Origin: Planctomycetota bacterium
GTDB taxonomy: Bacteria; Planctomycetota; Planctomycetia; Gemmatales; Gemmataceae
DNA: 64,000 nt
NCBI GenBank assembly: GCA_029777335.1
Contig: JAKOSN010000221.1
Location: 1-64,000, forward strand
Direction of reading: 5' to 3'
Positions within the stretch are counted from its first letter, which is position 1; each line of letters starts with the position of its first letter. This document shows, piece by piece, positions 37,894 through 58,628 of this stretch. The position numbers were made by a program, and so were the translations under genes. The notes below the pieces were generated by a model. That model was not told the origin of the DNA and searched no databases. It saw only the letters and a program-made list of their open reading frames with translations.

Positions 37894-39381
37894 ATGCAGC
37901 GCACCTTCTTCTTCGTCCTCGGTCTGCTCGGGTTGGTTGCCGGTGGCATCCTTCTCAGTCTAGGCTTCCTCCTCCCCACCTCCAGCGACGTTGATCAGCA
38001 TGCCCATCGCGCGGAGCAGGTGGCCAGTCGCACGGGAGACCAAATCGTGCTGCTGCGCAGGCAGATCGAGACCGCGCGCCGCCCTGAAATGCAGGAGCTG
38101 GCCGAGCGCTTGCATGAACAGTTGCCCCAGCTTACCCAGCTGGTGAAATCACAGGGGATCGACTACGACAACGTCCGCAATGTGAACAAGGCGGTTGGCG
38201 ATCTGGCAGCGGGCCTGGAGGGGATGGCCCAAACGCTCGACCCGGAGAACCTCGGCCAGATGCGCGAGGGGTTGAAAAAAACTGCCTCCTTTCTCGATGA
38301 AAAAGTCATCCCGGCCGCCACAACGGCGTCCGAACGCCTCGATAAAACGACCGCCGACCTTCGCACTGATGCACAGCGCTTGAGCGAATTGCTCAAGGTC
38401 GGATCACCGGATCTCAAGGCGGCCAGGGAGATTCACAACAGCCTGGGCCGCTTCAACGAGGGGCTGGATCAGCTGGCCAACCTGATCAAGCCCGAACGCA
38501 TCGAGGCCATGCGCGAGGGATTCAAGGGGATGGAGTCCTCGCTCACCACCGGGGCCGAACAGGTGGAGAAGCTCTCGGGGTACAACTACCCCGTGGTCAC
38601 CTTCAATGGCCTGAAGCCGAATGTGGAACAGAAGCCGTTCTGGCCCGAGGGGGGCAAGATCGCCGAGGGCTTGCGCAAGGGTGCCAAGGGGCTGTCGGCG
38701 GCGGGCAAGGATCTCGAGGACCTCTTTCGCGATCTTCCCAAGCTCCGCACCGCCCTTCTGGAAAGCCGCAAGGTGGCGGACCAAACTCGCGAGGCGCTGG
38801 GCAAGGCGATCAAGGATCAGGACAAGCTCGAACCGCTGCTGAAAAATATCCCCAAACATAGTGCCCAACTGGCGGCGGAGCTTCCTCTGCTCACCAGTGA
38901 GTTGAGCAAAATCCTGCGTGAGACCAGTCAGCTGCGCGAGGTAGCGACCGCGTTGCGCCAGGCGGGCAAAGGGCTGGACATGGCGGTCGAGAACTGGCCG
39001 CAACTGCGCAAGGCGCTCCTTCAATCGGCGATGCTTCTCAAGAACACTCAGCAGCAACTTGATCGTGCCCTGGAAAATCGCCAGAAGTATGAGCGGACGA
39101 TCAACCAGACTCTCGACACCGCGGATCTCTTCGCCTCCGCCCTGCCCCTGTACACCGCCCAGCTGGAAAATCGCCTGGCCGAGCAGGACCGGAGCCTGAA
39201 CGACCTGGAAAACAGCGTGGGCGAGGTGCGATCCGCCATTCCGGTGATGGCTCAGGGAACTACCCGGATTCTCACCCTGGCGCGCTGGGGGCTCTGGGTG
39301 TTCGCCGCCATCATGCTCCTGCTAGGCAGTTATCTATGCACCCTTGTTCTGTGTCGCAAGTCGCTCTTTGCCAGAGTGTGA
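37894..39381 (+). CDS. Long coiled-coil protein anchored at both ends
   Basis: 495 residues, GAAGGATG upstream. An N-terminal membrane segment (FFFVLGLLGLVAGGILLSLGFLL) and a C-terminal one (WGLWVFAAIMLLLGSYLCTLVLC) flank about 430 residues of heptad-rich helix (LAERLHEQLPQLTQLVKSQG, AQLAAELPLLTSELSKILRE, LENRLAEQDRSLNDLENSV). A short non-helical break sits near 235 (YNYPVVTFNGLKPNVEQKP). The helical part would lie outside the cytoplasm, so the protein could span or tether the periplasm, or arch with both ends in one membrane. Family not recognised. Confidence 0.65.
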   Translation: MQRTFFFVLGLLGLVAGGILLSLGFLLPTSSDVDQHAHRAEQVASRTGDQIVLLRRQIETARRPEMQELAERLHEQLPQLTQLVKSQGIDYDNVRNVNKAVGDLAAGLEGMAQTLDPENLGQMREGLKKTASFLDEKVIPAATTASERLDKTTADLRTDAQRLSELLKVGSPDLKAAREIHNSLGRFNEGLDQLANLIKPERIEAMREGFKGMESSLTTGAEQVEKLSGYNYPVVTFNGLKPNVEQKPFWPEGGKIAEGLRKGAKGLSAAGKDLEDLFRDLPKLRTALLESRKVADQTREALGKAIKDQDKLEPLLKNIPKHSAQLAAELPLLTSELSKILRETSQLREVATALRQAGKGLDMAVENWPQLRKALLQSAMLLKNTQQQLDRALENRQKYERTINQTLDTADLFASALPLYTAQLENRLAEQDRSLNDLENSVGEVRSAIPVMAQGTTRILTLARWGLWVFAAIMLLLGSYLCTLVLCRKSLFARV

Positions 39382-43217: not shown

Positions 43218-43502
43218 TTAGACCTGCGGAGGGTTGGTTTGCTCGAACTTCGGAGCCGTCGCCTTGATCTTCTCCGGGGCGCGGGGTTGATCCAGCGTCA
43301 ACTGTTCCTGACGCGGAGCCGACGCGGTCGAGTCGAGGTCGTCCTCGATCCCCTTGATCCCCTTCTTGAACTCAATGATCCCCTTCCCCAGATAGCGACC
43401 GACATCCGGGAGTTTGCGTCCAAACAGCAGCACGCCGACGATCAGGATCACGATCAGTTCCGGGGTGCCGATCGATCCAATGAAGCCAAACAGTGAAGCC
43501 AT
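43218..43502 (-). CDS. tatA: Sec-independent translocase protein TatA/E
   Basis: 94 residues with AAGGGT upstream. Opens with the TatA hallmark FGFIGSIGTPELIVILIVGVLLFGRKLPDVGRYLGKGIIEFKKG: short N-terminus, single membrane helix, FGRKLP hinge, amphipathic helix. TatA forms the pore-forming part of the twin-arginine export system, which serves the Tat-type leaders seen in the DUF1501 proteins. The acidic C-terminal tail is short. A second, shorter TatA-like gene lies upstream on the strand; no tatC is present in the window. Confidence 0.92.
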   Translation of the reverse strand: MASLFGFIGSIGTPELIVILIVGVLLFGRKLPDVGRYLGKGIIEFKKGIKGIEDDLDSTASAPRQEQLTLDQPRAPEKIKATAPKFEQTNPPQV

Positions 43503-43659: not shown

Positions 43660-43818
43660 TCAGCGTAGCGTTGGCGAAAGGTCGTCCTCGAATTCTCGGA
43701 TCTCCCGCCGCACATTTCGCACAGTTTGACCGAGCGAACGTGCCATCGTCGGCAGATGACGACCAAACAGAACCAGTCCGATTGCGCCAATCAGAATCAA
43801 TTCGGGTAGTCCAAGCAT
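43660..43818 (-). CDS. Short second TatA-like protein
   Basis: 52 residues from the ATG at 43818; the frame is open upstream to 43959 but that part is not TatA-like. MLGLPELILIGAIGLVLFGRHLPTMARSLGQTVRNVRREIREFEDD carries the TatA transmembrane helix and FGRHLP hinge but ends just after the amphipathic helix. It could be a TatA paralogue with a special partner or a TatB-like helper. It lies 157 bp upstream of the longer tatA on the same strand and 323 bp from the divergent kinase-tubulin gene; a minus-strand promoter is present in that gap. Confidence 0.82.
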   Translation of the reverse strand: MLGLPELILIGAIGLVLFGRHLPTMARSLGQTVRNVRREIREFEDDLSPTLR

Positions 43819-43915
43819 GTGGTATCCCCGCAGCGGGTTGTTCAGGTGGGATCGTTCTGGAGGGACCGGAGCAACGGCGCCCTGCGAGGTATCCAGCAAG
43901 AATGTGGATAAAAGA

Positions 43916-43945
43916 AGTATATCAGTCCAGGCGCAGCACAAGCAA
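43916..43945 (-). promoter_or_regulatory. Putative promoter for the tatA-like genes
   Basis: On the minus strand TTGCTT (43945-43940), an 18-bp spacer and TATACT (43921-43916) lie about 98 bp before the ATG at 43818. The rest of the 322-bp gap to the kinase gene shows a weak plus-strand TTGGAC/TATTCT pair at 44046-44075 and nothing else I can name. Confidence 0.4.
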
Positions 43946-44140
43946 GGAAGAATTCCCAAAGATTTCTCAGCGCGGCGAATCGCTCACGGTGCAGCACCCT
44001 CGTGGATCGGAAGGGTGGGTCGCCTCGGTTCACATTCCCCCCGCATTGGACAATCGTCGCATTGCGACCTATTCTTGGGTGGGCTCTCTGGTCTCCCCTC
44101 ATCCACTCAATCCTCAGATCATGCACCGAGGCGGACAGGT

Positions 44141-47100
44141 ATGAGTGTGCTCCGCGAATGTGGCGCCGAACCAATCCCCGGGTATCGGCTCATCGAACCG
44201 CTCGGTAGCGGCGGCTTCGGCGAAGCCTGGAAATGTGAAGCGCCGGGGGGCATATACAAGGCAATCAAGTTTGTCTTTGGCAATCTCAATTCGCTCGACG
44301 ATGGCGATGCTGCGCGTGCGGAACAGGAACTGCAGGCCCTCCATCGCGTGAAGGAAGTCCGCCATCCCTTTGTCCTGGGGATGGATCGCATCGAGATTCT
44401 CGATGGCGAACTCGTGATCGTCATGGAGCTGGCAGACAAGAATCTCTTCGATGTTTATGTCGAGGCCCAATCGGCAGGGCTGGTGGGTATTCCACGCGAC
44501 CAGCTCATCAGTTTTATCCGCGATTCCGCCGAAGCTCTCGATTACATGTGCGAGAAACACGGTCTGCAACATCTCGATATCAAACCGCGCAATCTCTTTC
44601 TGGTCAGCGACCGCGTCAAGGTGGCCGACTTTGGGCTGGTCAAGCACCTGGAGCGATCGGGGATGAGTGGGATTCTGGGCGGCGTCACGCCGTTATACGC
44701 CTCCCCGGAGACGTTCACCGGAAAGTTTAGCGACCGCTCCGATCAGTACAGCCTGGCGATTGTGTATCAGGAGTTGCTGACTGCCCAGCGCCCGTTTAAC
44801 GGCAAGAACGCGCGCATGCTGGCCCATCAGCACATGAACGAGGCTCCTGAGTTGCGCTCCCTCCCGGAGGCGGAGCGGCCCATCATCGCACGCGCCCTTT
44901 CCAAGGATCCTGCCAAACGCTTTCCGAACTGCCTCTCGTTTGTCCGCGCCCTGTACACGGCTCGCTCGGCTCCCACCCGGCTGCGGGACTCCGAGGAGGG
45001 GCAGAAAGCCAATCGTCCGAAGACCCTCTACGACACGATGGAAGACATCCATCTGGAGCAGATGGTCGGCAAACAGGACGAGCTGGAAGAAGTCGATCTG
45101 GGCGGCAGTCTGGAAGAACTCGACGAGGTGTCGAATCTCGGCTTGACTGCTCATCTCCCGCAGACCGGGGCCCTGCGTCCAGCACTGATCATTGGCCTGG
45201 GGAGTCTGGGACGGCGCGCGTTGATGGAGCTGCGCTGTCGGCTCCTCGATCGCTTTGGCGATCTGGAGCGCGTGCCCATCTTCCGCTTTCTCTACATCGA
45301 TACCGATGCTGATGCGCTGCGCCAGGCCTGTCGCGGAGCCTCGGAAATCGCTTTCAAGCCCGACGAGGTTTACCATCTGCCGCTGCAACCGATCGCCCAT
45401 TATCGCCAGCGTCAGATGGCTCAGCTCAGCGAGTGGTTGCCGCCGCAGAAACTGTACACCCTGCCGCGCAACCTGAAAACGCAGGGGTCGCGCGCCCTGG
45501 GGCGCCTGGCCTTTAGCGACAACTATTTGCGGCTGGTTGCCCGCATCAAACGCGAACTGCAGGCGGTCTCCCACCCCGATGCGCTCTATCGCGCGGTGAA
45601 TGACACCGGGCTGGCACTGCGCGACAATATCCCCTGTGTCTCGGTGATCGCCAGCGCAAGCGGAGGATCGAGCGGTTTCCTTCCCGATCTGGGCTATGCG
45701 CTGAAACGCGTCCTCAAGCAGATGCGCCAACCCGAGGGCCACATCAACAGCTTTCTTTTCTGTGGTGCTCCGGATGACCCCGCCACTCCGCCAGCGGAAC
45801 AGGCCAACCTCTATGCCACCCTCACCGAACTCAACCACTTTGCCGAGGGGATGGCTCCCTTTTCCGCGCAGTATGGCGCCGATGGAGCGCGGATTCGCGA
45901 GGAGGGTCCGGCGTTCGAGGCGACCTACCTCCTCACCCATGCCCAGCGCAGTCCGGGTGCCCGACGTGATGCCGTGGCGCACCTGGGCAGCTATCTCTTC
46001 CACGAGTTGACCACCCCCCTGGGCCTGCAGCTGGAGCGCTGGCGGATCCACACCAACGGGGTCGCCTTTCGCAGCATCGGGACGCACGCAGTGTGGTTCC
46101 CCAGTGGGTTGCTACTGCGACTGGCCGCCCGGCGCGCTCTCAAGACGCTGGTGCAACACTGGACGACCATGCTCGAAGCTCCCACGGGGACCCGCGGAGT
46201 GGGCAACTACTCCGAGGTGGAAGCGGTGTGCGGCCGAATCCTCTCCGATCCGGATCTGCGACCGGAAGCACTCACCACCCAGCTCGAAACGCTCGCTGCC
46301 AACCATCTGGATGAAACCACTCCGTCGGCCGGGCTGGTCCAGTTTCTGAGCCAGCTGGAAGAACAATGCTGGCAGTTTGGCGGACCCGACGATCCCGGCG
46401 TCTGGGCGCGCCAGGCAGTCGGCCGGATGAAGGAATGGCTGGGCGGAGGCGTTCAACAACAGGGAAGCATGAGCGTGGGCTTGCGCAAGAGCCGGATCAC
46501 TCGTGCGCTGGAATCAGCCTATACCACCCTGGCGGAAACGTGGGATAAAAAGCTCGCCGAGGCAGTCCTGCAGCTCATGGATGTCCCCGGCCATCGCATT
46601 GCCATGACCGAGGCCGCCCTGGGCAAATTGATTCAATGGTGCGGCTCCATGACGGAGGCGCAACTGAATCGCGTTCGCGACCTCAATAGCAAGGCGGCTC
46701 AGGCTGAACTCCCGCTTCAGGAAGCGCTCCGCACCTGCATCAACGGCAACTCAGGCTGGAGTTTCTTTACCAACCGCCGCTCCCGTCCGCTTCGCCTCTT
46801 CCTGGATCATCTAGCCACGCACGCCCGCCAGTCGCTCACCGCCGATATCGCCACCGCCCTGCTCCAGTTTTATCACGCGCTCCAGGGGCGGCTGCGCGAT
46901 CAGCTGCGGGATTGCACCTTTGTCCGCCAGCGCTTGCGGGCCGTGGTCGAGGTCCTCGAAATGCCCCCCCTTGAGGACATGGACGACGAGATGAGCTACA
47001 CGCCCGAAATGACGCTCAGCCCCACCCCCCTCGCTTCTACCGAATCGTTCTGGGAGGTGCTCCGCGAATCGACCACCACGCGTGTTGTTCTTCCTGATGG

Positions 47101-47785
47101 CGAAAAAGAACTCGACCGAGCCGCCGGACGCTTTGTTTCCACCCTCACCCCCGAACACTGGGTTCATCTCGACCAGAACCTGCAAGAGTTTGTCTTCTCG
47201 CTCCAGGGCGGGATGAACAAACTCTGTCTGGCGGCCAGCGATGTCCAGCGTCACCTCGCCACCCCGCTCGTTGACCAGGCGGCGCGCTGTCTGCAGCAAT
47301 TCCTCCCGGTGACCGATGTGGCCCAGGTCGAACTTTGCCTGAGCGAGGATGGCCACGAGGATCTGCCGCGCATGATCCAGACCTCCTATGAACGCGCGAT
47401 TCCCCTGATTGCTCCCGAGGCCCCCCAGAAGCGTGATTCCAAGGTGCTGGCTCTGGCGGGACTTTCGCGCGCCTCGCTGCCGGAAATGGCGCTCGAAGGA
47501 GGCCAGCCACGAAACACCCAGACCTGCTTCCTGCTCATCCCGGGGAGTGAACACGGCAAAGTCTACGGCGACGAAGCGCAGAAGGTCATCCACGGCGTGC
47601 ACCTGGTTCGAGTTCCAGGCAAGGCCGATTTGATGTTCTGTCGCGAACAGGGCAACCTCACGCCCGCCGAACTGCGGCGCATGCTCACCCCTTGCCGCGC
47701 CGCCTACGAGGAAGCGCTTTATAACATCAATAACTCTCCGCACGCTCGCTTCGACACGCAGGACTGGGTGCCCCTGGAACCGTAA
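44141..47785 (+). CDS. Ser/Thr protein kinase fused to a tubulin-like domain
   Basis: 1214 residues from the ATG at 44141 (GAGGCGGACAGGT upstream). Residues about 14-285 are a kinase: GSGGFGEAW (22-30), catalytic Lys in YKAIKF, HLDIKPRN (Asp146, with Leu in place of the usual Arg of HRD), DFGLV (163) and LYASPETF. After an acidic linker (285-345), residues about 346-800 show a tubulin/FtsZ-like pattern: ALIIGLGSLGRRALMELRCRL, FLYIDTDADALRQ and SASGGSSGF near 505-513 in place of the tubulin GGGTGSG signature. This matches the 'tubulin-like' Pfam family (Tubulin_2). The last 400 residues are alpha-helical and unassigned. Probably cytoplasmic and a signalling or filament-forming protein. Confidence 0.8.
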   Translation: MSVLRECGAEPIPGYRLIEPLGSGGFGEAWKCEAPGGIYKAIKFVFGNLNSLDDGDAARAEQELQALHRVKEVRHPFVLGMDRIEILDGELVIVMELADKNLFDVYVEAQSAGLVGIPRDQLISFIRDSAEALDYMCEKHGLQHLDIKPRNLFLVSDRVKVADFGLVKHLERSGMSGILGGVTPLYASPETFTGKFSDRSDQYSLAIVYQELLTAQRPFNGKNARMLAHQHMNEAPELRSLPEAERPIIARALSKDPAKRFPNCLSFVRALYTARSAPTRLRDSEEGQKANRPKTLYDTMEDIHLEQMVGKQDELEEVDLGGSLEELDEVSNLGLTAHLPQTGALRPALIIGLGSLGRRALMELRCRLLDRFGDLERVPIFRFLYIDTDADALRQACRGASEIAFKPDEVYHLPLQPIAHYRQRQMAQLSEWLPPQKLYTLPRNLKTQGSRALGRLAFSDNYLRLVARIKRELQAVSHPDALYRAVNDTGLALRDNIPCVSVIASASGGSSGFLPDLGYALKRVLKQMRQPEGHINSFLFCGAPDDPATPPAEQANLYATLTELNHFAEGMAPFSAQYGADGARIREEGPAFEATYLLTHAQRSPGARRDAVAHLGSYLFHELTTPLGLQLERWRIHTNGVAFRSIGTHAVWFPSGLLLRLAARRALKTLVQHWTTMLEAPTGTRGVGNYSEVEAVCGRILSDPDLRPEALTTQLETLAANHLDETTPSAGLVQFLSQLEEQCWQFGGPDDPGVWARQAVGRMKEWLGGGVQQQGSMSVGLRKSRITRALESAYTTLAETWDKKLAEAVLQLMDVPGHRIAMTEAALGKLIQWCGSMTEAQLNRVRDLNSKAAQAELPLQEALRTCINGNSGWSFFTNRRSRPLRLFLDHLATHARQSLTADIATALLQFYHALQGRLRDQLRDCTFVRQRLRAVVEVLEMPPLEDMDDEMSYTPEMTLSPTPLASTESFWEVLRESTTTRVVLPDGEKELDRAAGRFVSTLTPEHWVHLDQNLQEFVFSLQGGMNKLCLAASDVQRHLATPLVDQAARCLQQFLPVTDVAQVELCLSEDGHEDLPRMIQTSYERAIPLIAPEAPQKRDSKVLALAGLSRASLPEMALEGGQPRNTQTCFLLIPGSEHGKVYGDEAQKVIHGVHLVRVPGKADLMFCREQGNLTPAELRRMLTPCRAAYEEALYNINNSPHARFDTQDWVPLEP

Positions 47786-47796
47786 TCTGGCGTCCC

Positions 47797-48207
47797 TCAG
47801 ATGGTCGCGATCACCTTCAACTCGATGGCAATGGGGGTTGGCAAGCGGCTGACCTCCACCGTGGTTCGCGTCGGCTGATTGTCACGGAAATAGTCTGCAT
47901 AGATCTTGTTGAACGTCGCAAAATCGTTCTGCATATCGGTGAGGAAGACCGTGACATCAACAATGCGCTCCCAGCTGGAGCCCGCATCTTCCAGAATGGT
48001 GCGAATGTTGCGGAATACCGAGTGACACTGGGCCGCAATGTCATGCCCTGCCACCTTCCCGGTCTCATCGAGAATCTGTCCAGGGATGCGATCGGTCCCC
48101 GGCTCCCGCGGACCAATTCCACTGAGAAACAGCAGCGAGCCCACCTGGCGCGCGTGGGGATAGGCGCCTACAGGACGCGGGGCGCGGGAACTGATCGTTT
48201 CGCTCAT
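47797..48207 (-). CDS. RidA-family protein, 2-aminomuconate deaminase-like
   Basis: 136 residues from the ATG at 48207, whose first base pairs overlap the stop of the aldehyde dehydrogenase gene (4-bp ATGA-type overlap). RidA features: VGSLLFLSGIGPRE, QCHSVFRNIRTILEDAGSSWERIVDVTVFLTDM and RTTVEVSRLPTPIAIELKVIATI. The long insert (GTDRIPGQILDETGKVAGHDI) and the C-terminus match the 2-aminomuconate deaminases (AmnD/NbaF type) better than general RidA. Those convert 2-aminomuconate to 4-oxalocrotonate. The tight coupling to an aldehyde dehydrogenase supports this; a general imine deaminase is the alternative. Confidence 0.75.
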   Translation of the reverse strand: MSETISSRAPRPVGAYPHARQVGSLLFLSGIGPREPGTDRIPGQILDETGKVAGHDIAAQCHSVFRNIRTILEDAGSSWERIVDVTVFLTDMQNDFATFNKIYADYFRDNQPTRTTVEVSRLPTPIAIELKVIATI

Positions 48208-49667
48208 CTCGGACTTTCCGTGGCATACTTGAGGCAAACGGTTTTTGGCTCGGTGAAAAAGCGGAGTGCCTCGTCTCCGCCTTCGCGCCCGACTCCACTC
48301 TGCTTGGTCCCCCCGAAGGGAGTGCGCAGATCACGCAATAACCAGCAGTTAATCCACACGGTGCCCGCATCCAGCTGCTCCGCCACCCGATGCGCCCGGG
48401 CCAGATCGCCGGTCCACAACGACGCCGACAAGCCGTAGGGAGTGCTGTTCGCCCACTCGATCACCTCGGTTTCGGTGCGAAAGGGCGTCACTGTGACCAC
48501 CGGTCCAAAAATCTCTTCCTGGTTCACGCGGCAATTCACCGGCAGATCGGCGATCACGGTCGGTGCCACATAATATCCCCCCTGGCATCGAGGTGGAAGA
48601 AGCGGGGGAGCACCGCCGCCGCACAGGATGCGCCCCCCTTCCTCAACAGCGAGCCGCAGATAGCCCAGCACCTTCTCCCGATGCGCTGCCGAAATCAAGG
48701 CTCCCTGGTCGGTCGCAGGGTCGAGCGGATCGCCTACCTGCAGCGCCTTTGCACGCTCGACCAGTCGTTCCAGAAAGCGGGGATAGATCGCTTCCTCCAC
48801 GAAGAGCCGCGACCCACACAGACAGATTTCCCCCTGGTTCTCAAAGGCGGCTCGCACACTCCCCGCCAGTGTTTCCTCGAACGTACAATCGGCGAAGACC
48901 ACGTTGGGATTCTTCCCTCCGAGTTCCAGGGTCATCTTCTTGAACAGTGGGGCGGCATTCCGAGCGATGTCGGCGCCGGTTCTCGTTCCCCCTGTGAAGG
49001 ACAACGTGCGCACCGTGGGATGAGTCACCAGCGCTGCGCCCACCTTGCTCCCCAACCCGTGCACCACATTGAGCACCCCGGGTGGAAGACCGACCTGCTG
49101 GCACAATTCGGCCAGCAAGTGGGCAGTCACCGGCGTCAGTTCGGAGGGCTTCGCCACCGCGGTATTCCCCGTCGCCAGCGCTGGAGCAATCTTCCACGTG
49201 AGCAGATAGAGCGGCAGATTCCACGGCGAAATAAGCCCTGCCACTCCGCGCGGCTGACGAAGCACATAGTTGAGCGCCAGTTGATCAGTGCGATAACACT
49301 CGCTCTCGGTGTGGAGGATGGCAGTGGCGAAGTAGCGAAAGTTCGCCGCGGCCCGAGGAATATCCAGGGCACGCGCCAGACGTAGTGGTTTGCCGGTGTC
49401 CACGCACTCCGCCTGGGCGAATCGGTCCAGATTGGCCTCAATCCGCTGCGCAAGATCAAGCAACAACTGCGACCGTTCCGCCGCCGGGGTGCGCGCCCAC
49501 CCCGGAAAGGCCCGTCGGGCCGCTGCAACCGCCTGATCCACATCGCGGCCATCGCTATCCGGTACCTGGGAGTAAACCTCCCCGGTGGCGGGTTCGTGGT
49601 TCGGGAGATACGCGCCTCCAAGCGGCGCACGCCATTCGCCGTCGATGAAGTTGGCCAGGGTGAGCAT
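48204..49667 (-). CDS. Aldehyde dehydrogenase, 2-aminomuconic/2-hydroxymuconic semialdehyde type
   Basis: 487 residues from the ATG at 49667; the open frame extends 159 codons upstream but into the antisense of the next gene. ALDH motifs: ISPWNLPLYLLTWKIAPALATG, FTGGTRTGADI, LELGGKNPNVVFAD (catalytic Glu) and NQGEICLCGSR with catalytic Cys282. The C-terminal GGTKQSGVGREGGDEALRFFTEPKTVCLKY is typical of the 2-hydroxymuconic/2-aminomuconic semialdehyde dehydrogenases. Stop overlaps the RidA-like start, so translation is coupled. Together the pair points to the lower kynurenine (tryptophan) or aminophenol pathway; no other gene of that pathway is in the window. Confidence 0.85.
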   Translation of the reverse strand: MLTLANFIDGEWRAPLGGAYLPNHEPATGEVYSQVPDSDGRDVDQAVAAARRAFPGWARTPAAERSQLLLDLAQRIEANLDRFAQAECVDTGKPLRLARALDIPRAAANFRYFATAILHTESECYRTDQLALNYVLRQPRGVAGLISPWNLPLYLLTWKIAPALATGNTAVAKPSELTPVTAHLLAELCQQVGLPPGVLNVVHGLGSKVGAALVTHPTVRTLSFTGGTRTGADIARNAAPLFKKMTLELGGKNPNVVFADCTFEETLAGSVRAAFENQGEICLCGSRLFVEEAIYPRFLERLVERAKALQVGDPLDPATDQGALISAAHREKVLGYLRLAVEEGGRILCGGGAPPLLPPRCQGGYYVAPTVIADLPVNCRVNQEEIFGPVVTVTPFRTETEVIEWANSTPYGLSASLWTGDLARAHRVAEQLDAGTVWINCWLLRDLRTPFGGTKQSGVGREGGDEALRFFTEPKTVCLKYATESPR

Positions 49668-54233: not shown

Positions 54234-56087
54234 ATGAAGGCGCGCCAGTTAAGCAGTGTCGTGACCTATCTGCAGCGAACGCAGGGGAGGCTACAGTCGC
54301 TTTCGGATCGCCTCCTGCTGGAGCGATTTGCAAATGACCGTGACGAGGCAGCCTTTGAAACGTTGATGCACCGGCACGCTCAGCTGGTGCTGAACGTCTG
54401 CTGGCGTCTTCTCCAACACTCTCACGATGCCGAGGATGCATTCCAGGCAACCTTCCTGGTGCTGGCTCGCAAGGCAAAAACAGTCGCCTGGCGAGAGTCG
54501 ATTGCTGGCTGGCTGCACGAGGTCGCCTGTCGCGTGGCGGCCGAGGCACGAACGCGGGTGGGGAGACAACGCATGCGCGAACATCCACTGAATTCGCTCC
54601 CTGACTTACCGGGGGCATCCAGCTCGGAACCTTCCGAAATACCGACGCTTCTGGATGAGGAACTTCGCCGGCTCCCCGAGAAATACCGTGCCCCGCTCGT
54701 CCTCTGCTGTCTGGAGGGATTATCGCGCGATGAGGCAGCCCAACAACTGGGGTGGACCGTGGGAGCTGTCAAGGGTCGCCTGGAACGAGGGCGACTCTTG
54801 TTGGCCCGCCGACTCGCTCGCAAGGGCATCACTCTGGCCGCGGTGTTGACCCCTGCCTTGCTCCCCTCGCTCACCCGGGCCGCTGTGTCGCCAGCCCTGG
54901 TGCGCAACACCCTTCAGCTCGCCTCTTCCTTCGTGGCCAATAGTCCCAACCTGGCTAATTCCTCCGCTGTCACGCTCGCCGTCCAGGTATTGCAACGTCT
55001 TTCCCCTCCTCGTCTGACTCTCTTGCTAATGACCACTTTTCTGGCCCTCGCAGCGGCGGGATCCGCTTCGGCCTTTCTCACCTCGTCGCCGATTTCGCCC
55101 CTGGAGCCAGCCTCCCCGTTCAGGGGCGAGGTGCCTGTCTTCGTCCCCGTGCCGGAGAAGACCACGGTCCCGGGCGCTCCGCGTCTGCTCTTCACGCTTC
55201 GGCACAACGATGTCATCCGGCGCGCGGTCCTCACCCCCGACGGAAAGATCGCCGCGACGGCCAGTTTCGACGGCACGGTCCGCACCTGGGATGTCGGTAC
55301 CGGAAAACCGCTCAGCACCTGGATCGTGGCCAAACCCAACGAGCGGAATCTCCTCACCAGTACGAACAGCGCGCTCGCCTGCTCTACGAATGGCAAGGTT
55401 CTTTTCGTTGGGACTGCCCAGGGCGAACTGGCTGCCTGGGAGATGGCAACCCAGAAAGTGCTGTTCAGAACGCTTACCAAACAGCGGAACGTCTACGATC
55501 TCGCGGTTTCCCCCAATGGGAAGGTTCTCGCAACCGCCAATCACCTGGGGAGCGTATCCCTGTGGGATGCCCAGACCGGAAAGTTGATTCGCGAATGGAG
55601 TGCCCATCCCCGCCGTGTCTGGTCGGTCGCCTTCGCTCCCGATGGAAAAGCGGTTGCGTCGGCAGGGGAAGACGGAATGTTGTGCGTCTGGGACACCGCC
55701 ACCGGGAAGCAGAAGGTGCAAATGCGAGCCCATCGTGACTACACCGCAGGCGTTGCCTTCAACCCCGATGGCAAGATGCTCGCGTCTCTCGGTTACGATG
55801 ATCGTCTCTGTCTGTGGAACGCGACCACCGGGAAATTGATGCGTTCAGGCGAGGCGCCCAGCGGGGCCACGGTTCTCTTCTTTCACGATGGAAAAACGCT
55901 CCTTACCACCGACCGCGTGGGAGGCTTCCATCTGTGGGACGTCAAAACCCTCGACCGCCTGCACAGCAGTATGGACCATGAGGGCCCGGTGCACCATGCC
56001 GCCCTCAGCGTCGATCAGCAACGGGTTATCACGGCAAGCGAGGATCACGCGGCCCGGATCTACGATGTATCGCCTCGCCCCAAATGA
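54234..56087 (+). CDS. ECF sigma factor fused to WD40 repeats, membrane-anchored
   Basis: 617 residues, AGGGGG upstream. Residues about 25-95 are sigma region 2 (LLERFANDRDEAAFETLMHRH, DAEDAFQATFLVLARKA) and 135-195 region 4 (LRRLPEKYRAPLVLCCLEGLSRDEAAQQLGWTVGAVKGRLERGR). A membrane segment at 261-282 (LTLLLMTTFLALAAAGSASAFL) is followed by a linker and about seven WD40 blades (318-617: TPDGKIAATASFDGTVRTWDV and so on). This is the planctomycete ECF-Gob type. The blades would lie outside the cytoplasm and may sense a signal while the sigma part stays inside; release would need cleavage or another trigger. No partner anti-sigma gene is adjacent. Confidence 0.9.
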   Translation: MKARQLSSVVTYLQRTQGRLQSLSDRLLLERFANDRDEAAFETLMHRHAQLVLNVCWRLLQHSHDAEDAFQATFLVLARKAKTVAWRESIAGWLHEVACRVAAEARTRVGRQRMREHPLNSLPDLPGASSSEPSEIPTLLDEELRRLPEKYRAPLVLCCLEGLSRDEAAQQLGWTVGAVKGRLERGRLLLARRLARKGITLAAVLTPALLPSLTRAAVSPALVRNTLQLASSFVANSPNLANSSAVTLAVQVLQRLSPPRLTLLLMTTFLALAAAGSASAFLTSSPISPLEPASPFRGEVPVFVPVPEKTTVPGAPRLLFTLRHNDVIRRAVLTPDGKIAATASFDGTVRTWDVGTGKPLSTWIVAKPNERNLLTSTNSALACSTNGKVLFVGTAQGELAAWEMATQKVLFRTLTKQRNVYDLAVSPNGKVLATANHLGSVSLWDAQTGKLIREWSAHPRRVWSVAFAPDGKAVASAGEDGMLCVWDTATGKQKVQMRAHRDYTAGVAFNPDGKMLASLGYDDRLCLWNATTGKLMRSGEAPSGATVLFFHDGKTLLTTDRVGGFHLWDVKTLDRLHSSMDHEGPVHHAALSVDQQRVITASEDHAARIYDVSPRPK

Positions 56088-56989: not shown

Positions 56990-58628
56990 CCTGGCTCGCT
57001 GGAATGAACCCCCCGCCACCGTCGAGGAAGAAGTGCTGGCCGATCTGGTCGATGCGCTCCTGGCGCAACAGCGGCGCGGCGAGGCCCTCAACCTCGTCGA
57101 ATTGCTTCAGAGACATCCAGAGTGTGTACGCGCCGGTCAGGATCTGCTGACGGTGGTTGACTGCCTCCATCAGTTCGCGGCCAGCGTGCTGGAGTATTCA
57201 GAGTTGCCCGAAGACCAAACCTCGCGCCAGGGTACGGCGACGACCTCCTGGGAAGATCCCGCGCTTCCTCAGCCGTTCCCCGGGGAGTATCATGTGCAGC
57301 AATTGCTCGGCGAAGGTGGCTTCAGCAAGGTATGGCTGGCGCAGGATTGTCATCTGGCGATCCCGGTCGCGCTGAAAACCCTGCTGCTCCAGGGCGACGC
57401 ACAGCGCCAGCGAACTGCCCTCGCGGCCCTGCAAAACGAGGCTCGGGTGCTCGCCCGGCTGGACCATCCGCACATCGTCCGCGTCTTCGCCCTGCGCCCC
57501 GCGAACAACGATTACTACCTGATTCTGCAATATGTCGCGGGAGGCTCCCTCGACCAGCGTGTGCGCCGCAGCGGTCCGCTTACCTGGGAACAAGGAGCGC
57601 GCTACGTCGCCGATGTGGGAGAAGCGCTCCTGGCGGTCCATCGCCAGGGATTGCTCCACCGCGACATCAAACCGGCGAATATCCTCTGGGATCCGCTCAA
57701 GGACGAGGCCTTGCTTACGGATTTCGGACTGGCGGCCCGTCTGAGCGACGATCCTACCAGCGCCGGCACCCCTCTGTTCATGGCTCTGGAAGCCTTCCAC
57801 GGTCAGGGCGGCGCCCCGGCGGATGTCTATGGACTGGCTGCGACGCTCTTCTTTCTGCTGACCGGGCAACCGCCCTTTGCCGCTCCATCACGACGGGCCT
57901 TGCAACAGAAGATCGCGCAGGGGTTGCCTGCATCGGACCCGCGTTGTGCATCCCTCCCGGAAGCGCTGGAGCGCCTGCTGCGAGCGGGGCTGGCCGTGCA
58001 GCCCGAGGATCGTCCTCCGCTGGAGGTGTTTCTCGCCACGCTGCGCGGCTTGCTCAATCAGTTGCTTGCTGACACCCTGATGTCACGAACCACCAGCGGA
58101 CGGGCAGCGATCACCCTGCGGCTGCTCGTAAGCCGACAGGAAGCGACCCAGCGATTTGTCCCTGTTGCCACAACCCATCCTCAACAGGGGCAAACGCGCG
58201 ACATGAAGAAGGTTCCCCCCACACCGGAACGCGTTGTCCTGCGCACCGGAGAGCGCGTGCGGATCGAGGTGCTTTCCAGCCATGCGGGGTATCTGAGCGT
58301 GTTCAATGTCGGCCCAACGGGCAATTTACATCTTCTTTATCCTGATTCGGGCACCCCTGGCACCATCGAGGCGGCCCGACCTCTGCCGATCGTCGATGTC
58401 GAGATGACACCCCCCGCTGGTCACGAGCGCCTCTTTGCGTTGTGGAGCGAACGTCCCCTGCCGGTGGAACCCGACCGCTTGTTGCAACTGGCCGCCCCAG
58501 CAACGCAGTCGCGGGAGTATCGGGCAACGCGCTCGCTGGAGCAATTGCAGGACTCCGTGCTTCAGCTGGCGCCCGAGCACTGGCAGGCCGTGGTGCTGGA
58601 ACTGGATCATCAGAACAATCTGCAGTGA
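56973..58628 (+). CDS. Ser/Thr protein kinase with C-terminal DUF4384-like domain
   Basis: 551 residues. An N-terminal helical region (20-85) precedes the kinase (about 105-395): GEGGFSKVW (113-121), Lys135, HRDIKPAN (Asp231), DFGLA (250-254); the usual APE is ALE (271-273). No membrane segment is evident. Residues about 412-551 (LRTGERVRIEVLSSHAGYLSVFNVGPTGNLHLLYPDSG, VDVEMTPPAGHERLFALWSERPLP) match the DUF4384 pattern, a beta domain often attached to caspase-like or kinase proteins. It overlaps the sigma factor gene by 17 bp, the standard planctomycete sigma-kinase pair. Confidence 0.88.
   Translation: MSINADLARWNEPPATVEEEVLADLVDALLAQQRRGEALNLVELLQRHPECVRAGQDLLTVVDCLHQFAASVLEYSELPEDQTSRQGTATTSWEDPALPQPFPGEYHVQQLLGEGGFSKVWLAQDCHLAIPVALKTLLLQGDAQRQRTALAALQNEARVLARLDHPHIVRVFALRPANNDYYLILQYVAGGSLDQRVRRSGPLTWEQGARYVADVGEALLAVHRQGLLHRDIKPANILWDPLKDEALLTDFGLAARLSDDPTSAGTPLFMALEAFHGQGGAPADVYGLAATLFFLLTGQPPFAAPSRRALQQKIAQGLPASDPRCASLPEALERLLRAGLAVQPEDRPPLEVFLATLRGLLNQLLADTLMSRTTSGRAAITLRLLVSRQEATQRFVPVATTHPQQGQTRDMKKVPPTPERVVLRTGERVRIEVLSSHAGYLSVFNVGPTGNLHLLYPDSGTPGTIEAARPLPIVDVEMTPPAGHERLFALWSERPLPVEPDRLLQLAAPATQSREYRATRSLEQLQDSVLQLAPEHWQAVVLELDHQNNLQ

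Follow-up and report, generated by a model that had tools for sequence, protein, structure and literature searches.

A kinase-tubulin fusion protein with a shortened T4-like loop and a full-length-loop sister in a planctomycete genome

The tubulin relative FtsZl1 was described in 2010 by Makarova and Koonin, and four of the proteins that they assigned to it were planctomycete fusions with a kinase at the N-terminus (PMC2875224); the description of kinase-FtsZl1 proteins was later repeated (PMC9871819), and FtsZl1 is also listed for Gemmata massiliana (PMC4672568). Most, not all, FtsZl1 genes stand in an operon with genes for a vWA protein, a P-loop GTPase and an OmpA-type protein, and no counterparts of the T6-H7 elements, which help to form FtsZ filaments, could be identified in the family at that time (PMC2875224). 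According to a 2024 survey, planctomycete kinases that are exclusively cytoplasmic carry a tubulin-like domain more often than any other partner (PMC11032199). The gene analyzed in this study lies in a stretch of 64,000 nucleotides (contig JAKOSN010000221.1, positions 1 to 64,000; hereafter the window). An earlier note on this DNA had expected a system new to the lineage, an expectation that fails, since the fusion has been in the literature since 2010 and occurs widely in the lineage. Thus, the kinase-tubulin architecture is already known, and what appears to be new is a loop deletion on the branch of this gene together with an intact sister in the same cell. In the literature covered by our incomplete search, we found no report of the two paralogue groups described below, of the loop deletion on the group A branch, of the single non-RD kinase clade or of group B genes next to scpA, nor a relevant report linking ScpA, tubulin-like proteins and planctomycetes.

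The fusion gene and its surroundings comprise the following features:

43218-43502, minus strand: tatA-like gene with a TatA_B_E match, a neighbour judged to lie outside the system
43660-43959, minus strand: second tatA-like ORF (TatA_B_E), its TatA part starting at ORF residue 49, also a neighbour judged to lie outside the system
44047-44075, plus strand: possible sigma-70-like promoter 5' of the fusion gene, a consensus match only
44141-47785, plus strand: kinase-Tubulin_2 fusion gene (group A), 1214 amino acids, from ORF and Pfam; no predicted transmembrane segment
44183-44923, plus strand: protein kinase domain (Pfam), residues 15-261, with GSGGFG, K43, E63, HLDIKPRN (non-RD) and DFG all conserved in orthologues
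44951-45175, plus strand: acidic linker of variable sequence, residues 271-345, with close orthologues about 22% identical on average
45185-46153, plus strand: Tubulin_2 (FtsZl1) domain, residues 349-671, from Pfam and the fold matches of the model
45653-45679, plus strand: T4-like phosphate loop SASGGSSGF, which is GGGTGSG minus one residue by sequence comparison
46154-47782, plus strand: C-terminal region, residues 672-1214, mostly helical by prediction and ending in the conserved SPHARFDTQDWVPLEP
47797-48237, minus strand: convergent RidA/L-PSP gene; neither neighbour is co-directional with the fusion gene

The fusion of a kinase to a tubulin-superfamily domain, as read in the earlier note, is borne out by a Pfam scan in which both domains lie far above their cut-offs (Pkinase, E 3.5e-29; Tubulin_2, E 2.2e-30), the sole further match being PK_Tyr_Ser-Thr, an overlapping kinase model. 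The score for Tubulin_2 (PF13809) was 106.5 bits at a gathering cut-off of 27, and the same HMM, proposed as a check, matched every homologue scanned. All motifs listed in that note are present in the ORF. The kinase has GSGGFG at residue 22, AIK (Lys43), HLDIKPRN at 144 and DFG at 163; the tubulin part has IIGLGSLGRRAL at 350 (T1-like), FLYIDTDADAL at 383 (T2-like) and SASGGSSGF at 505 (T4 region). The helical end, given there as 400 residues, is indeed mostly helical, the length being closer to 540 residues (672-1214); the structure model predicts long helices across much of residues 690-1050 and, at low confidence, a small beta-alpha-beta unit near the C-terminus. The H, R and D in the SPHARFD part of SPHARFDTQDWVPLEP are kept in groups A and B. 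The annotated start is supported by many orthologues, which also begin 21 residues before the glycine loop. No stretch is hydrophobic enough for a membrane helix, so that the protein is probably cytoplasmic, and an Rfam scan around the gene returned only a tRNA. The match goes beyond chance, since 68 homologues were recovered, most with the same layout; most of them measure about 1140-1270 amino acids and have a complete kinase. Among named relatives, the nearest come from metagenome assemblies of planctomycetes, of which one is labelled Gemmatales; no viral relatives were confirmed.

The catalytic residues of a Hanks-type Ser/Thr kinase (K43, D146, N151, D163) are kept in at least 90% of the sequences of each group. 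An RD-type catalytic loop is not required of such kinases, and non-RD kinases exist; here HLD stands in place of HRD, and this trait, noticed at first in the window protein, is common to the whole fusion clade (HMD once), whereas the other kinases compared from the same genome have HRD where the motif was recognized. In this comparison, which took in 30 of the 157 kinase matches of the genome, the fused kinases all grouped in one clade (support 1.0) and scored 294-584 bits against the window's kinase, as opposed to at most 73 bits for the remaining kinases. This points to one ancestral fusion, shared also by the members that belong to the class's other families. Mean identity within the clade is highest in the kinase (68%), followed by the tubulin part (51-55%) and the tail (33%). 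In the 7.2-Mb genome, protein kinase domains were matched 157 times in all; besides that of the fusion protein, another lies inside the window (57288-58025).

PF00091 (FtsZ/tubulin) has no match in the window protein or in its genome, and matches weakly in four of nine members of the kinase-tubulin family scanned. Among 41 genomes searched, the sole PF00091 match lies inside one fusion protein and no separate FtsZ or tubulin was found; the Tubulin_2 proteins are therefore the only tubulin-superfamily members detected there. An hhalign comparison of the family with E. coli FtsZ covered the T1-T2 segment alone, over 41 columns at 37% identity (E 0.0034, but probability 9.5%), and no credible solved structure related by sequence was found. 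The AlphaFold2 models, for which three sequences were used, have low confidence (mean pLDDT 54 and pTM 0.38 for 880 residues; mean pLDDT 56 and pTM 0.62 for the Tubulin_2 domain). Nevertheless, the low-confidence domain model, on which the tubulin fold was to be checked, retrieved almost only tubulins: nearly all of its top 50 PDB fold matches are alpha-, beta- or gamma-tubulin chains, with probabilities mostly above 0.9 and up to 1.00, at E values of 2e-3 to 4e-2 and thus above 1e-3. This supports rather than proves a tubulin-type Rossmann fold for the modelled domain. The top matches of the whole 880-residue model were long-helix pore-forming toxins, which were rejected as a long-helix artefact (TM about 0.1, rmsd about 40 Å); TubZ and tubulins appear lower in the same list with probability near 1.

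In a tree of the full proteins, 22 sequences including the window gene form group A and 41 form group B, each monophyletic with support 1.0. The two groups are ancient paralogues. Some group B genes stand in tandem, and the first and second genes of these pairs belong to separate clades. The 7.19-Mb genome of the window carries a second kinase-Tubulin_2 fusion gene. Both groups occur together in 22 of the 29 genomes of the order in which Tubulin_2 was found in a first survey, group A only in one (G013) and group B only, with no counterpart detected, in six; several of these genomes are incomplete, so that absences are weak evidence, and a few were assigned by means of gene fragments at the end of a contig. 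Within the order, 89 of 102 genomes have Tubulin_2, compared with only 14 of 294 genomes spread over the phylum. This near-universal presence in the order, as opposed to the patchy occurrence of defence genes, makes it very unlikely that the protein is a defence or conflict component comparable to the GTPase-centric systems that contain tubulin domains or to anti-phage systems consisting of a single kinase. Such a role would agree with the match of PADLOC kinase models to the window protein (PD-T4-6, 4.5e-40) and with the occurrence of tubulin domains in GAP1-N2 conflict systems (PMC7159879), but the PADLOC matches span the kinase domain only and, as detailed below, recurrent partner genes are missing. 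A kinase-less Tubulin_2 protein (E 1.5e-55) of the same order, encoded at L103:5233-8778 and adjoining two ORFs without Pfam match, probably belongs to a separate FtsZl1-type system.

One difference between the paralogues concerns the T4-like loop, which in FtsZ and tubulin holds the GTP phosphates. The window protein lacks the GGGTG(S/T)G loop of Tubulin_2/FtsZl1 proteins, an alteration seen from the start and now recognizable as a one-residue deletion common to the gene's clade: the loop is one residue short in all 17 group A sequences of the gene's own family (ASGGSSGF in the window), and full length, in some cases with substitutions, in group B and in all five group A sequences of the sister family (e.g. 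GGGTGSGM). The paralogue in the same genome has a full-length loop, AGGTGSG. Since the 17 short-loop sequences form one clade (support 0.99), a single deletion explains the pattern. The T1-like GxGxxG and the T2-like D-T-D motif are intact in the window protein, and given the contact of T4 with the GTP phosphates, reduced GTP handling would be expected for the short-loop proteins. We thus place the window protein in Tubulin_2 by descent and HMM score, not as a putatively active GTPase. A divergent homologue, L095:7899-11339, has a kinase without GxGxxG and HxD and a T4 loop that is also degenerate; both of its enzymatic parts may be dead.

The shortened loop, together with the kinase being the best conserved part of the protein and with filament elements (T6-H7) unrecognized in the family (PMC2875224), would also fit a tubulin part that does not polymerize but serves as a nucleotide-sensing or dimerization module switching the kinase on and off, the group A switch being locked or sensing a signal other than GTP. 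We regard this as only slightly less probable than the explanation preferred below; against it, hundreds of conserved residues in the tubulin part and tail, including the C-terminal motif, seem excessive for a simple switch.

The gene neighbourhood differs between the two groups. In the window, the fusion gene diverges from two TatA-like genes, as had been noticed, with TatA_B_E matches on the minus strand (1.5e-14 and 1.9e-10). Because the tatA-like genes upstream and the RidA-type gene downstream are on the opposite strand, the fusion gene is probably its own transcription unit. The two divergent genes directly upstream are also what could suggest that the protein works with TatA proteins at the membrane, but among the matches listed tatA stands beside the fusion gene in the window's genome only, and similar tandem pairs in relatives lie away from any listed fusion gene. 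This absence of synteny across genomes largely refutes a TatA partnership, and the functional link once considered is scarcely credible. Around group A in general, no gene cluster recurs beyond close relatives, and no Pfam family among those listed occurs in more than two of 58 neighbours; the vWA, phosphatase and tatA genes that a survey of orthologues might have revealed are not recurrent, and no conserved partner gene emerged from these neighbours. A PP2C phosphatase and an FtsH-type protease were each seen in two of the 58, too few for a pattern. This neighbourhood also argues against group A being part of the membrane-remodelling machine proposed for FtsZl1 in 2010, with its vWA protein, P-loop GTPase and OmpA-type protein, even if a single vWA gene could be missed among the families listed. 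Extensive internal membranes are a known feature of the planctomycetes in this group and would suit such a machine. So would the membership in the same tubulin family (PMC2875224); with the window protein devoid of a transmembrane segment, we consider this role unlikely. Elsewhere in the window, sigma-70 region 4 is fused to a WD40 beta-propeller (54234-56087), and a weak, sub-threshold BAR-domain match (37894-39381, E 1.4e-4) is perhaps only a coiled coil.

For group B, a gene with an SMC_ScpA match follows directly downstream and in the same direction in ten genomes of ten genera (loci L037, L039, L042, L060, L065, L075 and L081, and genomes G333, G357 and G373). In the seven loci examined, the two genes either lie 18-70 nt apart or have overlapping reading frames. 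This adjacency suggests a link to chromosome segregation. Group A shows no scpA linkage, nor does any fusion gene in the genome of the window. Upstream of group B, two genes recur on the other strand, which we take from reading their sequences to be MfnB-like and ASCH-like.

The explanation we prefer, at a probability of roughly 35%, is that the window protein, a kinase-bearing subunit with impaired GTPase function, joins a sister tubulin that binds GTP in an assembly regulated by phosphorylation. Group A proteins would oligomerize or co-assemble with GTP-binding group B proteins; assembly would bring the kinase domains together, and these would phosphorylate the assembly itself or bound partners and thereby set its stability or report its state. 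Because group B genes directly precede scpA in ten genera, chromosome or nucleoid organization, in bacteria that divide without FtsZ, would be the most likely setting. The data establish the architecture, ancestry and co-occurrence of these proteins, while polymerization, nucleotide use, control by phosphorylation and the link to segregation are inferred. The more specific proposal that intact-loop B and disabled-loop A proteins form a self-phosphorylating cytoskeleton acting with condensin (ScpA) in nucleoid segregation of FtsZ-less, Gemmatales-type planctomycetes is quite unlikely as it stands. Several observations speak against the preferred explanation: the T6-H7 counterparts not identified in 2010 (PMC2875224), the missing scpA linkage of group A and of the window's genome, group A without detectable B in G013 and B without detectable A in six genomes, several of them incomplete, and structure models that are weak because only three sequences were usable.

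How planctomycetes without FtsZ divide and segregate their DNA is an open question on which the kinase-tubulins may bear. The loop difference between the groups and the linkage of group B to scpA lead to predictions, namely a GTP-binding paralogue, an interaction between A and B, and a contact with condensin. Moreover, a tubulin relative with a built-in kinase would be a cytoskeletal element that brings its regulator along, which is unusual.

With FtsZ the window protein shares the T1-like GxGxxG and the T2-like (N/D)TDxxAL; it differs in having no PF00091 match, no FtsZ_C and a shortened T4, and in its added kinase and long helical tail. BtubA/BtubB and alpha/beta tubulin are likewise pairs of paralogues within the same cell, of which one may handle nucleotides differently; this is an analogy only, the families being distant and a heterodimer or filament of the kinase-tubulins hypothetical. 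The closest described relatives are the planctomycete FtsZl1 proteins (PMC2875224), with which the window protein shares the N-terminal kinase, the tubulin-like PF13809 domain, the long helical C-terminus and the domain order, within the same phylum; in contrast to these, its clade has no intact GGGTG(S/T)G, and vWA, GTPase and OmpA genes do not recur beside group A. Finally, the protein belongs to the class counted as tubulin-like cytoplasmic kinases in the 2024 survey (PMC11032199), to which the present analysis adds the paralogue groups, the loop deletion and the gene neighbourhood, subjects not treated in the portion of the survey considered here.
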